From: a virus
Direction: 5' to 3' (one strand)
DNA: 27,737 bases
Virus record (IMG/VR): IMGVR_UViG_3300043418_000205
Location: 1 to 27,737 of that record
Shown: positions 22,044 through 27,731 of the stretch, piece after piece
How the letters are laid out: every line of letters starts with the position of its first letter
How positions within the stretch are numbered: position 1 is the first letter of the stretch
Made by a program: the position numbers and the translations under genes
The notes under the pieces: model-generated
Database searches by the model: none
Told to the model about the DNA's origin: nothing
What the model saw: only the letters and a program-made list of their open reading frames with translations

Positions 22044-22367
22044 CTAGCGCCGCCCTGCCGCTGCCGCCTTGGCCTCGGCCGATGTCTTCGCCCGGTGACA
22101 TGGGCCGCAAAGCGCTTGCAGGTTCCCATCATCCTCGCCGCCACCAAGGTGGCGCGGCCTGATATGATCCACGTCGGTCGCCATTGCCGCGATGCTACCG
22201 CGCCGGCACGCTTGGCACAAGTACTTGTCGCGCTTCAGGATCCGTGCCCGCAGCCTGTCCCACTCTGCACCGTAGCCGCGCGACTGTCGGGAACCGTCGC
22301 CAGCCTTGCCCCAGCTGCGCCGCTTGGCGCCGGGTAGCCTGCCTAATTGTGGTGGAGCCTTGGGCAT
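22044..22367 (-). CDS. HNH endonuclease next to terminase
   Basis: This 107-residue protein carries a full HNH motif: a zinc CxxC in KYLCQACRRG, DVDHIRPRHLGGG with the catalytic His, and NLQALCGPCHRAKT with the second CxxC and final His. Position next to the small terminase matches HK97 gp74 and relatives, where the HNH protein works with the terminase in cutting cos. A free-standing homing endonuclease is less likely given the conserved order. The ATG at 22367 fits the MPKAPPQLG start; the upstream frame to 22418 runs into the terminator hairpin. The ribosome binding site is weak. Confidence 0.9.
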   Translation of the reverse strand: MPKAPPQLGRLPGAKRRSWGKAGDGSRQSRGYGAEWDRLRARILKRDKYLCQACRRGSIAAMATDVDHIRPRHLGGGEDDGNLQALCGPCHRAKTSAEAKAAAAGRR

Positions 22368-22382
22368 CGGTGCTGCCCTCAA

Positions 22383-22413
22383 ATGAAAAGGTGCGCCTTC
22401 ACAAGACGCACCT
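22383..22413 (-). terminator. Terminator hairpin at early/late junction
   Basis: On the minus strand AGGTGCG pairs with CGCACCT (7 bp), then a 1x1 mismatch and CTT/AAG extend the stem to a 3-base loop; it is followed by TTTCATTT. It lies between the last early gene and the HNH gene, 21 bases before the HNH start, leaving no room for a promoter between them. It is a likely intrinsic terminator or antitermination target. Confidence 0.7.
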
Positions 22414-22451
22414 ATCAATCGTGATCAGGTCTAGCACGCGGTGGCCAAACG

Positions 22452-23048
22452 TCAACCCTCCGCAACGCGCAGCCCACGAATACCAAAGCGACCAGCCACG
22501 GCATCAACCAGACGCTTACTCGCTTTCAGGAACGCGCGCTGCTGATTACGGCGCTCGGTGCGAACGCTGGCTCGCACATGACGATGGGCACATGCGCGCC
22601 GGGCAATCTCCACGAACGTCAGTTCGTCTCGCATCACCGCGTCGAACACCTCGAACAGACCTTGCCCAATCTCTCCCGCCGCCCACTTCACGTCGAACCG
22701 CGCCTGCATTGCCGCATGGTCGATGGAGACGCTACCCGCTGCCCTGCGGTTGCCGACTTCGCCAGACAGCGCGCAGCCAAACATTCCACTTTCCGCCAAC
22801 GACAGCCGCGCCGCATACCAGTCCAGCACGTTGTAGGTCTGCCGGTCGATCGTGCCAGCGCGGTAAAGCGTCTGGTAGTGCGGCACCTTGCGCACCGCGC
22901 GATGCTGCTTCAGCGCCCCGTTTACGTAAACCTCGCCGTGCGGGTTCGGGACCGCTGCGATGTCGTATTCGCCCCGCGCCATCTGCGCCGCCGGGATATC
23001 TGCCTGCGCGATCATCGGATCGATGCGGCGCGCCGTTGCCTTGCCCAT
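22452..23048 (-). CDS. Putative DNA-binding regulator, last early gene
   Basis: This 198-residue protein is not firmly recognised. Its middle (PHYQTLYRAGTIDRQTYNVL and DWYAARLSLAESGMFGCALS) and C-terminal part (LFEVFDAVMRDELTFVEIAR, then a basic helix and RAFLKASKRLVDAVAGRFG) have the layout of DUF6456-type proteins of Alphaproteobacteria and of phage late regulators of the RinA/Q type: an old-cell-like mid-domain and a helix-turn-helix-like tail. It is the final gene before a terminator hairpin and the packaging genes, the position of lambda Q. Start at 23048 is supported by GGGAGGG 6-7 bases upstream. The regulatory role is inference. Confidence 0.5.
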   Translation of the reverse strand: MGKATARRIDPMIAQADIPAAQMARGEYDIAAVPNPHGEVYVNGALKQHRAVRKVPHYQTLYRAGTIDRQTYNVLDWYAARLSLAESGMFGCALSGEVGNRRAAGSVSIDHAAMQARFDVKWAAGEIGQGLFEVFDAVMRDELTFVEIARRACAHRHVRASVRTERRNQQRAFLKASKRLVDAVAGRFGIRGLRVAEG

Positions 23049-23068: not shown

Positions 23069-23557
23069 TTAATCCCGCCCGGCGCGAAGCCGGTCGGTCG
23101 CTTGTCGCTTGATCATTTCCAGTTCCTCCGCTGTCGGCTTCCACGCCTCGCGCTTTGGCTTCGCTTCGCCCGCTCGCTCCAGCAGTGCGAAACGCATCCG
23201 TTTGCGCGCTGCCCATCTCTCTTCGGCATGATCCATGATCGTCGGCACGATCGCGCCGTGGTGCCGGCACTTGCGACGGGCCATCGCGCAGCCTTCATCC
23301 AGCAGGTCGGCGGGCACGTGCTGCACCTCGTCGGTTGCCAGTGAAATCCACTCTTCGGCCGCTTCCTCGCTCATGCCGACAGGCCGCACCAGCGCTAGGC
23401 ACCCGGTCAGCATGGCGATAACCCACGCTTCCCGATGCGGGCGCAGCCCATTGTCCGGATCAGCCGGCGTTGGCAGCCGCACGCCGCTCGGCCACACGCT
23501 GCCCGATGGTGCGCAGCCCTGCCCCGCCCGTGCGGGCAGGTTGTTCGGATTGTCCAT
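23069..23557 (-). CDS. P-like helicase loader candidate
   Basis: This 162-residue protein follows the replication initiator and overlaps its 3' end by 98 bases. The core, AAEEWISLATDEVQHVPADLL plus a GCAMARRKCRHHGAIVPTIM helix pair, follows the pattern of small phage replication partners in which a Trp-containing helix, a Pro-(Ala)-Asp-Leu turn and a VP-I/T motif recur. The place matches lambda P, which loads DnaB. The N-terminal 40 residues are Pro/Arg-rich and fall in the overlap. A GGAG site is 7 bases before the ATG at 23557, so the overlap looks real; an internal ATG at 23413 is the alternative. Function by position and weak pattern. Confidence 0.5.
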   Translation of the reverse strand: MDNPNNLPARAGQGCAPSGSVWPSGVRLPTPADPDNGLRPHREAWVIAMLTGCLALVRPVGMSEEAAEEWISLATDEVQHVPADLLDEGCAMARRKCRHHGAIVPTIMDHAEERWAARKRMRFALLERAGEAKPKREAWKPTAEELEMIKRQATDRLRAGRD

Positions 23558-24329
23558 GTCGATCTCCAGCTGCGCGGCGCGCTTCGTGCTGAAGCGCCGC
23601 CGCTATCCATTCCACCGGCTCGGAAGGCTGCATCACCTGGCAGCGAGAAAGCACGGCAAGCACGATGCTGTCGGAATAGGTCTGTCGCCAGCGGCCGATG
23701 ATCGAACGGGCCTGTCGGTCATTCTTGCCGACTGCCGTGAGGATCGCCACCCCGCTGCCAAACACCATCCGCGTAAAGTCCGCCGCATCGGGTTGCGGAC
23801 CAGCCGGGAGGGAAGGTTCACAAACCCTTTCCGAAACCGGCGATTTGGCGCCCGTAGCTTTAGCTACGGTATCTTCTGTCTCTGACTCTGTATCTGGTGC
23901 GTCACGGTGACGTCGCGGTGACGCACCTGTGACGTCACATGGTGCCTTTTCCTTCGATTTTTTCCCTTCCCGCCATTTCGCGGTGCGGCCAGCCGATCGG
24001 TCGCTTTCGTATTGCCGGCGTTCCCATGCGGTCACGCGTCCGTCGCAGGTCAACCCGATGTCGGCGAACGCGCTCACCAGCGCTTCCATCGCCAAGAGGG
24101 GTTCGCCCAGCGCCACAGCCACAAGGCGGGGGGAGCAATCGAACCGGCCGCTATCCATCGCCACGGCCGCCTTTTCCAGGATCAGGTGCCAGGCGGCCAC
24201 GGCCACGCTGCGCGAACAGCCCGCCACCATCGCCGCTTCGGCCAGCTTGGGATCGGCAACCGTCCCTTCATAGGCGCGATACCACCGTGCCACGTCAGCT
24301 ATGCCCAGCCGGTGCCCAGCACTCGGCAC
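23460..24329 (-). CDS. Replication initiator, lambda O/DnaD-like
   Basis: The 289-residue protein resembles phage replisome organisers. Residues about 1-115 look like a winged-helix DNA-binding domain: VARWYRAYEGTVADPKLAEA, SRSVAVAAWHLILEKAAVAM and DGRVTAWERRQYESDRSAGR, matching the DUF1376/YdaU-like N-terminus. A charged, low-complexity linker (about 116-175) follows, then a C-terminal domain with SIIGRWRQTYSDSIVLAVLS and PVEWIAAALQHEARR, as in DnaD-like tails that recruit a loader. The DNA of the linker carries an iteron-like array, as in lambda O. The GTG at 24329 has AGGA 6 bases upstream; a GTG at 24293 is less likely. It ends overlapping the P-like gene by 98 bases. Confidence 0.7.
   Translation of the reverse strand: MPSAGHRLGIADVARWYRAYEGTVADPKLAEAAMVAGCSRSVAVAAWHLILEKAAVAMDSGRFDCSPRLVAVALGEPLLAMEALVSAFADIGLTCDGRVTAWERRQYESDRSAGRTAKWREGKKSKEKAPCDVTGASPRRHRDAPDTESETEDTVAKATGAKSPVSERVCEPSLPAGPQPDAADFTRMVFGSGVAILTAVGKNDRQARSIIGRWRQTYSDSIVLAVLSRCQVMQPSEPVEWIAAALQHEARRAAGDRHGQSEQPARTGGAGLRTIGQRVAERRAAANAG
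23852..23869. repeat. Perfect 7-bp hairpin in initiator linker
   Basis: CCGTAGC, TTTA, GCTACGG form a perfect 7-bp stem with a 4-base loop inside the linker of the initiator gene, 31 bases from the iteron-like array. It is in frame and open in the gene. Confidence 0.6.
23901..23944. repeat. Iteron-like 11-bp repeats, candidate replication origin
   Basis: Four adjacent 11-base units: GTCACGGTGAC (23901-23911), GTCGCGGTGAC (23912-23922), GCACCTGTGAC (23923-23933) and a partial GTCACATGGTG (23934-23944). The first unit is nearly palindromic. An asymmetric AT-richer tract (TTTTCCTTCGATTTTTTCCC, 23947-23966) follows directly. They lie in the linker of the O-like initiator gene, the same arrangement as ori-lambda, where four iterons and an AT-rich region sit inside the O gene. 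Confidence 0.65.
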
Positions 24330-24501: not shown

Positions 24502-24680
24502 GGGCGCCCGCCTTTCTTCGCGCGCACATCGGCAGCGATCTTGGATACTTCCTCTTCCGATAAGCCCTTTCCGCCCGTCATCACGTCCGACAGCCACGAA
24601 AGCGCGCGGATGGCATTGTACGTACCATCAGGATTTATGGCAGCTTCGCCCAGCGTCTTTGCCTTGCGGGGATCGCTCAC
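24498..24680 (-). CDS. 60-residue small acidic protein
   Basis: The product starts (GTG) with SDPRKAKTLGEAAINPDGTY, has a short helix ALSWLSDVM, and ends SEEEVSKIAADVRAKKGGRP. GTGA overlap with the upstream gene and AAGGGGG 8 bases before the GTG support the start. No family is recognised. It is likely one of the accessory proteins of the early operon. Confidence 0.6.
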   Translation of the reverse strand: MSDPRKAKTLGEAAINPDGTYNAIRALSWLSDVMTGGKGLSEEEVSKIAADVRAKKGGRP

Positions 24681-26188: not shown

Positions 26189-26517
26189 GGCTGAACCTCC
26201 CACCAGTAACCGCCGGCGCGTCCGCGCTCGCTGCGGATCGGGCTGCACGGCCCCAGTTTCTTGCGAAGACGGCACACCATCACTTGCGCCACATTGCTGG
26301 TTTCGCGCGCGTTGCCGATCCGGTTGCTGATCGCCTCCGCACGGATCCGCCGCCCGCGCCCGGCCGCGATGGTGTACAGCGTGCCCGCCTCTCCGGGGGT
26401 CAGCGCCAGCCGGTCCTGGCCGAACCACGCTTCGCACGGCGTCACCCGCCACGGGCCGCTTTCGATCATGTCGTCCGGAATCAGATTGATTCCGCAATGG
26501 GGGCACATGTGCATCAT
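26185..26517 (-). CDS. Zinc-motif plus OmpR-type winged-helix protein
   Basis: The 110-residue product has MMHMCPHCGINLIPDD at its N-terminus (CxxC knuckle, though a second Cys pair is not evident; one more Cys at VTPCEAW) and then a full Trans_reg_C (OmpR/PhoB) DNA-binding domain: LALTPGEAGTLYTIAAGRGR, RAEAISNRIGNARETSNVAQ, VMVCRLRKKLGPC and RAGGYWWEVQP. No receiver domain is present. In standard response regulators this domain binds promoter DNA, so this is probably a phage transcription regulator or a DNA-binding partner of the methyltransferase, with which it is coupled (ATGA overlap). Confidence 0.75.
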   Translation of the reverse strand: MMHMCPHCGINLIPDDMIESGPWRVTPCEAWFGQDRLALTPGEAGTLYTIAAGRGRRIRAEAISNRIGNARETSNVAQVMVCRLRKKLGPCSPIRSERGRAGGYWWEVQP

Positions 26518-27731
26518 GCTGCCTGCACCCCTTCTTCCTGCGCCACCTTGTCGGCGGCGGCCGTGTCCAGCCCCATCAGGCCAAACAGCGTCGGCACCGC
26601 CGCCTTGCGCGCCGCTTCGGTCAGGTATCGCGTGGAATGCAGCCAATAGGTCGGGTTCAGTTCGCTGCCCCGGCCGCGCCGCCCCTTCAGCACCGCGCGC
26701 ATCGGCACCGTGCCCAGCCCGCAAAACGGATCGTAAACCAGTTCGCCCGGCATCGAATATCGCTCGATCAGGCGGTCCACGATGTCGAATTGCAGCGGGC
26801 AGACGTGCTTTTCGCGGCCCTTCTGCACCTGCTCGGCGTTCAGCGTGCGCATCCGCACCACGTCGTCCCACGTATTGCCATCGGTGGCACCCGGCGCCAG
26901 CGCCATGAACGTGCGGGGCAGGTGGCCACGGCTGTCGCTCTTTTCGCGCGCCTCGATCGTCTCACCCACCGCCACATGTGCGTCGAAATCATAGATCAGG
27001 GCGCGCGTGCCCTCCATGAACCGCTTCACCAGCTGGCCCACCGGCATATCGGCATACATCTCGGCCACCGCCGCCAGCTCGTCGGGCATTCCCAGCCGGT
27101 CGCCGCTGCTGCGCCAGAATGCGTGCGCATCCACCTGCCAGCGCGCCAGGCTATAATCGTCGGCCGCCTTGGCTACCGGCTTGTCGGCATAGCCGCGGTT
27201 ACGGTCGCTTTGCGGCTTCCGCATCAACAGCACGTATTCGGGCGAACCCACGCCCATCTTTGTGCCGTCCTTCAGCATCTCCGTATAGGACAGGCGATAG
27301 GTCTGGTTGTTCTCGCGCACCACGTCGGTGTTCACGTGGATCATGCCCATGAACTGGAAGCCGTGGCGCTGGTAATGGAACAGCGTCTTGGCGTGGAACG
27401 GGTTCACCGTGGGCACGCCCTCGCCCGTCACCGATCCGAACAGGATCCTGTCCTTCACATGGATGCAGGCCAGCCGGCCCGGAGCCAGCGCGCGAAACAG
27501 TTCCGGCGTCAGGAAGTCCATCTGCGCAAAGAAATGATCGTCACTGTCGGTATGGCCGAAATCGTTGTAGCTCGGCGTATATTCATAATGGTTCGAAAAC
27601 GGGATGCTGGGTACGATCAGGTCCAGACTATCCGTTTCGACCAGCCGGGCCTCTTCCACGCAATCATTCAGGGCAAGGGTCCATCCCTCGCCGGTTTCCA
27701 CCTTGCGTTCCACTCCGATGCTCCTTTGCAT
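26514..27731 (-). CDS. DNA adenine/cytosine-N4 methyltransferase, beta class
   Basis: At 405 residues, this is a site-specific DNA methyltransferase. The order is beta class: motif IV-like LIVPSIPFSNHYEY (residues 38-51) near the N-terminus and motif I-like VYDPFCGLGTVPMRAVLKG (332-350) near the C-terminus, with a target-recognition part between (140-310). The usual SPPF/DPPY is replaced by SIPF followed by SNHYEYTPSYNDFGHT. The SAM-binding FxGxG and a following GSELNP Glu are intact. It is probably used for protection of phage DNA or regulation. The window ends 6 bases upstream of the ATG at 27731 and no stop lies there, so a longer start cannot be excluded. Confidence 0.85.
   Translation of the reverse strand: MQRSIGVERKVETGEGWTLALNDCVEEARLVETDSLDLIVPSIPFSNHYEYTPSYNDFGHTDSDDHFFAQMDFLTPELFRALAPGRLACIHVKDRILFGSVTGEGVPTVNPFHAKTLFHYQRHGFQFMGMIHVNTDVVRENNQTYRLSYTEMLKDGTKMGVGSPEYVLLMRKPQSDRNRGYADKPVAKAADDYSLARWQVDAHAFWRSSGDRLGMPDELAAVAEMYADMPVGQLVKRFMEGTRALIYDFDAHVAVGETIEAREKSDSRGHLPRTFMALAPGATDGNTWDDVVRMRTLNAEQVQKGREKHVCPLQFDIVDRLIERYSMPGELVYDPFCGLGTVPMRAVLKGRRGRGSELNPTYWLHSTRYLTEAARKAAVPTLFGLMGLDTAAADKVAQEEGVQAA

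Follow-up and report, generated by a model that had tools for sequence, protein, structure and literature searches.

The initiator gene and its surroundings

The window analyzed here (the whole stretch of 27,737 bases) is a virus record that represents a fragment of a tailed phage. Terminase, portal, capsid, tape measure, and tail-fiber genes are recognizable on the same strand as a gene for a replisome-organizer-like initiator (23460–24329, minus strand; 289 amino acids, GTG start). The gene product has a weak match (E = 0.032) to phrog_3729, 'replication initiation protein'. Residues 15–105 (24015–24287, minus strand) are predicted to form a winged-helix domain, based on the AF2 model (pLDDT about 81–98 over residues 21–100) and structural matches, with a best Z of 7.5 across 66 residues among winged-helix structures. 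Searches of the PDB with the model (Foldseek and VIA) returned generic winged-helix matches only, and a sequence search of the PDB returned nothing credible. In a viral library, DUF1376/Lin1244-like phage proteins are among the best structural matches, and one relative (L037) weakly matches DUF1376; no described function or origin was found for these proteins in the open-licence literature. PF09681 (Phage_rep_org_N) is matched weakly by 9 of 27 family members, with an E of 0.0006 at best, and not by the window protein. A more distant relative, L038, passes this profile (24.0 bits vs. a cut-off of 23.3).

The winged-helix domain is followed by a basic helix (residues 112–127; 23949–23996, minus strand), modeled with low to middling confidence, and then by a linker that is disordered and acidic in the AF2 model. 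A C-terminal four-helix domain (residues 182–258; 23556–23786, minus strand; pLDDT mostly above 90) is common, by alignment, to the window initiator and seven relatives. The next gene downstream (23069–23557, minus strand) encodes 162 amino acids. Relatives of this gene detected by tblastn adjoin the initiator gene in two other loci (46% in L013 and 27% in L002), and its product has no match in Pfam and no credible match in PHROG. It is possibly a helicase-loader-type protein. Pseudomonas phage vB_PaeS-D14H, which has a related initiator, tract, and hairpin, carries a gene annotated as DnaB helicase immediately after that of the initiator. Elsewhere in the window, an HNH endonuclease gene (22044–22418, minus strand) lies near the large terminase gene, and the far end (26514–27731, minus strand) has a gene for an N6/N4 DNA methyltransferase (PF01555), for which the best PHROG label is DNA helicase. 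The GC skew of the window has no minimum at the array described below; the recognizable genes all run one way, so the skew is uninformative.

A protein search of IMG/VR found 25 relatives of the initiator with 30–57% identity, and this set was enlarged by an alignment search. A scan for the tract described below recovered numerous loci from other initiator-like families, and 132 cases remained once redundancy was removed. A scan of genome contigs found two bacterial loci only, one in Sphingomonas aerophila and the other in an Alsobacter MAG, and no relatives at the DNA level were present in INPHARED. In nearly all relatives, the coding strand of the linker has the same order of elements, namely an array of GNNACG/CGTNNC half-sites, CCCCAGA or a similar sequence, a run of GANACA, and often a hairpin. 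The variable bases NN are CA, TA, AA, TC, or TG, depending on the phage. No description of an initiator group with GNNACG arrays was found in the open-licence literature, outside which an older description might lie.

The 11-bp array and its correspondence with the initiator

The preliminary description reported four abutting 11-base units at 23901–23944, and these are present. On the plus strand they read GTCACGGTGAC (23901), GTCGCGGTGAC (23912), GCACCTGTGAC (23923), and GTCACATGGTG (23934); the first two match one another well, whereas the third retains GTGAC and the fourth GTCAC. Judging from the comparison among loci, the four units are the same half-site lattice that is seen in relatives. 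A half-site scan resolves the array (23900–23944) into five GTGACG/CGTCAC half-sites on an 11-bp lattice, at positions 23900, 23907, 23918, 23929, and 23933, including one perfect 10-bp palindrome, GTGACGTCAC, at 23929–23938. In the 27.7-kb window, this is the sole cluster with at least four copies per 55 bp of any GNNACG word. In a scan of the whole initiator gene, the five half-sites within 80 bp exceed the counts in all 300 synonymous-codon shuffles (mean 2.08, maximum 4, p = 0.0033). When the repeats were sought in relatives with the same initiator, as had been proposed earlier, 21 of 29 family sequences had an array beyond what synonymous shuffling yields (p < 0.01). Moreover, an 11-base period is out of step with codons of three bases, which rules out a repeated peptide as its source; the repeat is thus selected as DNA.

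The geometry of this lattice is shared across the 132 arrays. The most common spacing of same-strand half-sites is 11 bp (148 pairs), followed by 22, 21, and 33 bp, and the offsets of opposite-strand half-sites are mostly 4 modulo 11. The 10-bp palindrome GNNACGTNNC is present in 114 of these arrays, and exactly 10 bp is the commonest distance between the last forward half-site and the tract.

Directly after the winged-helix domain, the family has the motif (K/R)RQ(Y/F).SD.S..R-X-..-(H/Y/F/W)-R, which AlphaFold places at the start of the helix at residues 112–127. The identity of residue X corresponds closely to the variable bases of the half-sites, counting only those half-sites downstream of the motif. 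Specifically, Ser corresponds to CA (23/23), Thr to TG (13/14), and Val to AA or TA (49/50). The mutual information between X and the half-site class is 1.37 of 1.50 bits (z = 31.6), and the next best column, at +3, has a z of 10.1. Within the Val class, position −3 helps to split AA from TA. These rules were then fixed and applied to a held-out set of two further families, which were fetched by protein similarity alone and from which previously seen loci were dropped. In this set, Val predicted A at the second variable base in 58 of 59 loci and Thr predicted TG in all eight, for a combined 66 of 67. Among the held-out Val loci, Ala, Lys, Ser, Asn, or Arg at −3 was accompanied by TA in 34 of 34, and Thr at −3 was ambiguous (nine AA vs. 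eight TA). The held-out set contained no Ser case, such that the Ser rule rests on the initial set.

In the window, X is Thr116 (codon at 23982–23984, minus strand), and position −3 is Ala113 (codon at 23991–23993, minus strand), which in the held-out Val loci goes with T as the first variable base. Together they predict GTGACG, which is the half-site present. Since the identity of X tracks the half-sites of the array, the initiator almost certainly recognizes the DNA that encodes it. This covariation is strong evidence for the earlier suggestion of an initiator that binds its own coding sequence. X, the linker, and the array all fall within some 100 bp and might be inherited together as one unit; however, the sequence between X and the array has diverged and X has flipped repeatedly. 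On a tree of the N-terminal domain from which the motif was left out, X requires about 24 changes, and in independent pairs on supported branches (6, 7, and 5) the half-site never contradicts the rule for X. The bZIP helices read TGACGTCA, and a basic helix that would read G-NN-AC on either side of a central CG resembles this arrangement, although no kinship is claimed.

Two further observations concern specificity. The initiator of L024/L053 has an acidic stretch of exceptional length (ETET..., about 31 residues) together with the half-site GTCACG; its basic region does not fit the S/T/V motif and is possibly a further specificity class. In addition, five initiator-like genes (L042, L066, L075, L098, and L116) have the same GANACA tract with other upstream repeats (for example, GCTAGCA/TGCAAGCA or GATATCA), which are probably other array specificities that are read by other domains.

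The low-stability tract and the hairpin

The array and the hairpin lie in the low-complexity linker of the initiator gene, as previously noted. A (GANACA)n tract, which encodes DTESETED and is TCTGT-rich on the plus strand, is found between them at 23870–23896 (minus strand). Its codon usage is highly unusual. In the family found by protein similarity alone, Thr is encoded by ACA in 80 of 81 codons of the tract and acidic linker vs. 48 of 331 elsewhere in the genes, and GAC accounts for 0 of 111 codons in this region vs. 193 of 730 elsewhere. The best 24-bp stretch within 23870–23896 ranks in the weakest 0.13% of the contig for stability. These patterns of codon choice show that the tract is constrained, and it is a candidate unwinding and single-strand element. 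The preliminary description had placed a 24-base AT tract beside the array. Such a tract is real and, judging by its length and extent, probably that at 23945–23968 (CCTTTTCCTTCGATTTTTTCCCTT), which is T-rich, melts easily, and does no more than encode the lysine-rich tail of the basic helix. However, it is not conserved, being unseen at the matching place in relatives, and the conserved low-stability tract (23870–23896) is located on the other side of the array.

The perfect 7-bp hairpin that had been recognized 31 bases to the left of the array is also present (23852–23869), and reads CCGTAGC-TAAA-GCTACGG on the coding strand and CCGTAGC-TTTA-GCTACGG on the template strand. Defined as a stem of at least 6 bp with a four-base loop of T-N-N-C/A just after the tract, hairpins occur in 42 of the 132 loci, with many different stems. 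Because only about a third of the loci have one, the hairpin is not generally required. Nevertheless, 38 perfect hairpins were counted in the 132 loci, compared with 0.55 per synonymous-shuffle replicate, and C-G-closed hairpins of this loop class reach 1.97 per kb at the site, as opposed to 0.0123 per kb in the rest of these contigs. Such enrichment over shuffled sequences and other contig sequence shows that the hairpin is a genuine feature of these loci. The distance from the tract to the stem varies from roughly 0 to 31 nt between loci. The loops are TAAC (21), TAAA (8), TGAC (4), TGGC (3), TATC (3), and single others; read on the template strand, they are GNNA or TTTA and usually closed by C-G. 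None of the 42 hairpins has a G-U pair on the coding strand, and the two A-C mismatches correspond to G-T on the template strand. This pairing pattern leans toward a DNA structure of the template strand, as judged from small numbers. A check of three-base loops for a d(GNA) class found two template-strand GAA loops with C-G closing among 16, which are too few to weigh. In a neighboring gene about 1.2 kb from the array, near 22621 (minus strand), ACGAAC-TGAC-GTTCGT is another hairpin with a four-base loop of the T-N-N-C/A class.

The origin reading, its alternatives, and comparison with known systems

Based on the covariation between residue and half-site and on the conserved order of array, tract, and hairpin, the element is probably (about 0.84) a replication origin that lies within the gene of its own initiator, where the linker is encoded. 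According to this model, several initiator molecules would assemble into a nucleoprotein complex along one face of the 11-bp lattice, and the adjoining GANACA tract would open and expose single strands. The C-terminal domain of the initiator, together with neighboring replication proteins, would then load the host replicative helicase at the opened tract. Where present, the hairpin beside the opened tract would probably act as a structural signal once the DNA is single-stranded. Most phages that are known only by sequence have unmapped origins, and here the probable origin of a large phage group can be read straight from the initiator gene; judging by the few named members, this group is proteobacterial. 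The binding sites are predictable from one or two initiator residues. Such a code provides a way to study how initiators and origins change specificity jointly and what role the hairpin has, and it bears on why diverse initiator linkers have VTVTPPDTDTDTDTE-like sequences in common.

The array may alternatively be an operator, through which the initiator shuts off transcription of its own gene while the origin lies elsewhere. The same covariation would arise if the initiator bound its gene for this purpose, and a weak promoter-like match is found upstream at 24643–24615. However, the array lies some 400 bp into the gene and not at a promoter, and next to it, in a fixed order, come an easily melted tract whose codon bias is extreme and a hairpin. 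Furthermore, where arrays inside phage initiator genes are known from experiments, they are origins (PMC8965321, PMC6316719, and PMC7466680). An operator in place of an origin is therefore considered unlikely. It is hardly credible that the repeats simply reflect a linker of low complexity in the protein (VTVTPPDTDTDTE-like) and play no part as DNA. Although the region does encode a disordered acidic linker, the 11-bp period is out of frame with the codons, the array exceeds synonymous shuffles, Thr in the tract is encoded almost exclusively by ACA, and NN follows residue X.

For the hairpin, the alternatives to a part in the in-gene origin concern RNA. UNAC is an RNA loop class, and the TAAC, TGAC, and TTAC loops on the coding strand, which account for 26 of 52 four-base-loop hairpins, fit it; variable perfect stems are equally compatible with RNA. 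The hairpin could accordingly be an element of the initiator mRNA that controls translation or termination, outside the origin. This explanation is rather unlikely, given that 16 other loops (TAAA, TGGC, TATC, TACC, and TAGC) are not UNAC and yet fit GNNA or TTTA on the template strand, that the pairing pattern described above has no coding-strand G-U pairs and two A-C mismatches, that TTTT follows the stem on the coding strand in 0 of 42 cases, and that an Rfam search gave no match. A terminator scanner flags 23852–23869 followed by TATCTTCTGT on the plus strand, such that the hairpin and the T/C-rich plus strand of the tract may be an intrinsic terminator of antisense transcription into the origin. 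Such a tail must abut the stem, yet the gap between tract and stem is variable, and TTTT is found within 9 nt on the plus-strand side in only 5 of 42 hairpins, making this function very unlikely.

Within the origin model, GNNA and TTTA loops in DNA are compact, and DnaG prefers CTG as a start. The loop class and the CTG-containing pyrimidine strand weakly suggest that the template strand bears a mark for priming or for loading of the helicase. We tentatively propose, at less than even odds, that a strand-specific hairpin of the template strand, with a GNNA or TTTA (occasionally GAA) loop and CTG-spaced pyrimidines, marks the loading of helicase or primase after the tract opens, in addition to the specificity code between initiator and origin. 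If true, a single-strand initiation signal would be built into the coding sequence of the initiator, and the recognition code would let the initiator and the origin switch specificity together.

Origins within initiator genes are known from other phages. In lambda, as in Stx phages, the origin lies in the middle of the initiator gene O and combines several copies of the initiator site with an AT-rich tract next to them (PMC7466680). The replisome organizers of TP901-1 (ORF13) and Tuc2009 (ORF16) were experimentally found to bind repeats in their own genes, which are the origins (PMC8965321). The oriL of SPP1 has direct repeats and an AT-rich unwinding element within gene 38 and is bound by gp38 (PMC6316719). 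By analogy, the window system would work like those of lambda O, SPP1 gp38, and TP901-1 Rep. The locus had been proposed as a lambda-type origin, and the likeness holds in that repeats for initiator binding (here deduced from covariation) and an AT-rich tract are found inside the initiator gene. However, lambda has four 18-bp iterons (ATCCCTCAAAACGAGGGA-like, ATCCCTC...GAGGGA type, annotated in L191) spaced by 20–24 bp, whereas the window family has 10-bp GNNACGTNNC palindromes with GNNACG half-sites on an 11-bp lattice. Lambda O also lacks the GNNACG array, the basic-helix motif, and the GANACA tract, and a comparison of the initiator family with lambda O by hhalign showed no homology (probability 0.2%). 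In terms of iteron sequence, spacing, and protein, the window system is thus not lambda-type. The likeness to TP901-1 and Tuc2009 consists of the recognition of own-gene repeats (here from covariation only) and, in some members of the window family, weak matches to the N-terminal domain PF09681. In contrast, the TP901-1 rep gene has AT-rich repeats spaced by 15 bp and no GNNACG array, and hhalign found no similarity between the initiator family and TP901-1 Rep. The SPP1 system is similar by its description in having in-gene repeats and an unwinding element, and the excerpted description of oriL mentions no hairpin (PMC6316719). Taken together, the sequence comparisons point to a widespread initiator–origin pair with a readable specificity code, to which many members add a conserved hairpin.

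Domain insertions and exchanges are also found in these initiator genes. L018, L020, and L023 carry HNH endonuclease domains as insertions in the initiator or close to it, at the linker that follows the winged-helix domain; the insert in L020 lies between the basic helix and array remnants. In L188, from the Alsobacter MAG, a GIY-YIG/T5orf172-like domain (about 1800–2000) is, by eye, apparently inserted after the winged-helix domain. The L091 initiator differs in its N-terminal half, whereas its C-terminal domain is like that of the window protein and its CCGTAGC-TAAA-GCTACGG hairpin is identical, a mosaic that suggests exchange of modules within the initiator gene.
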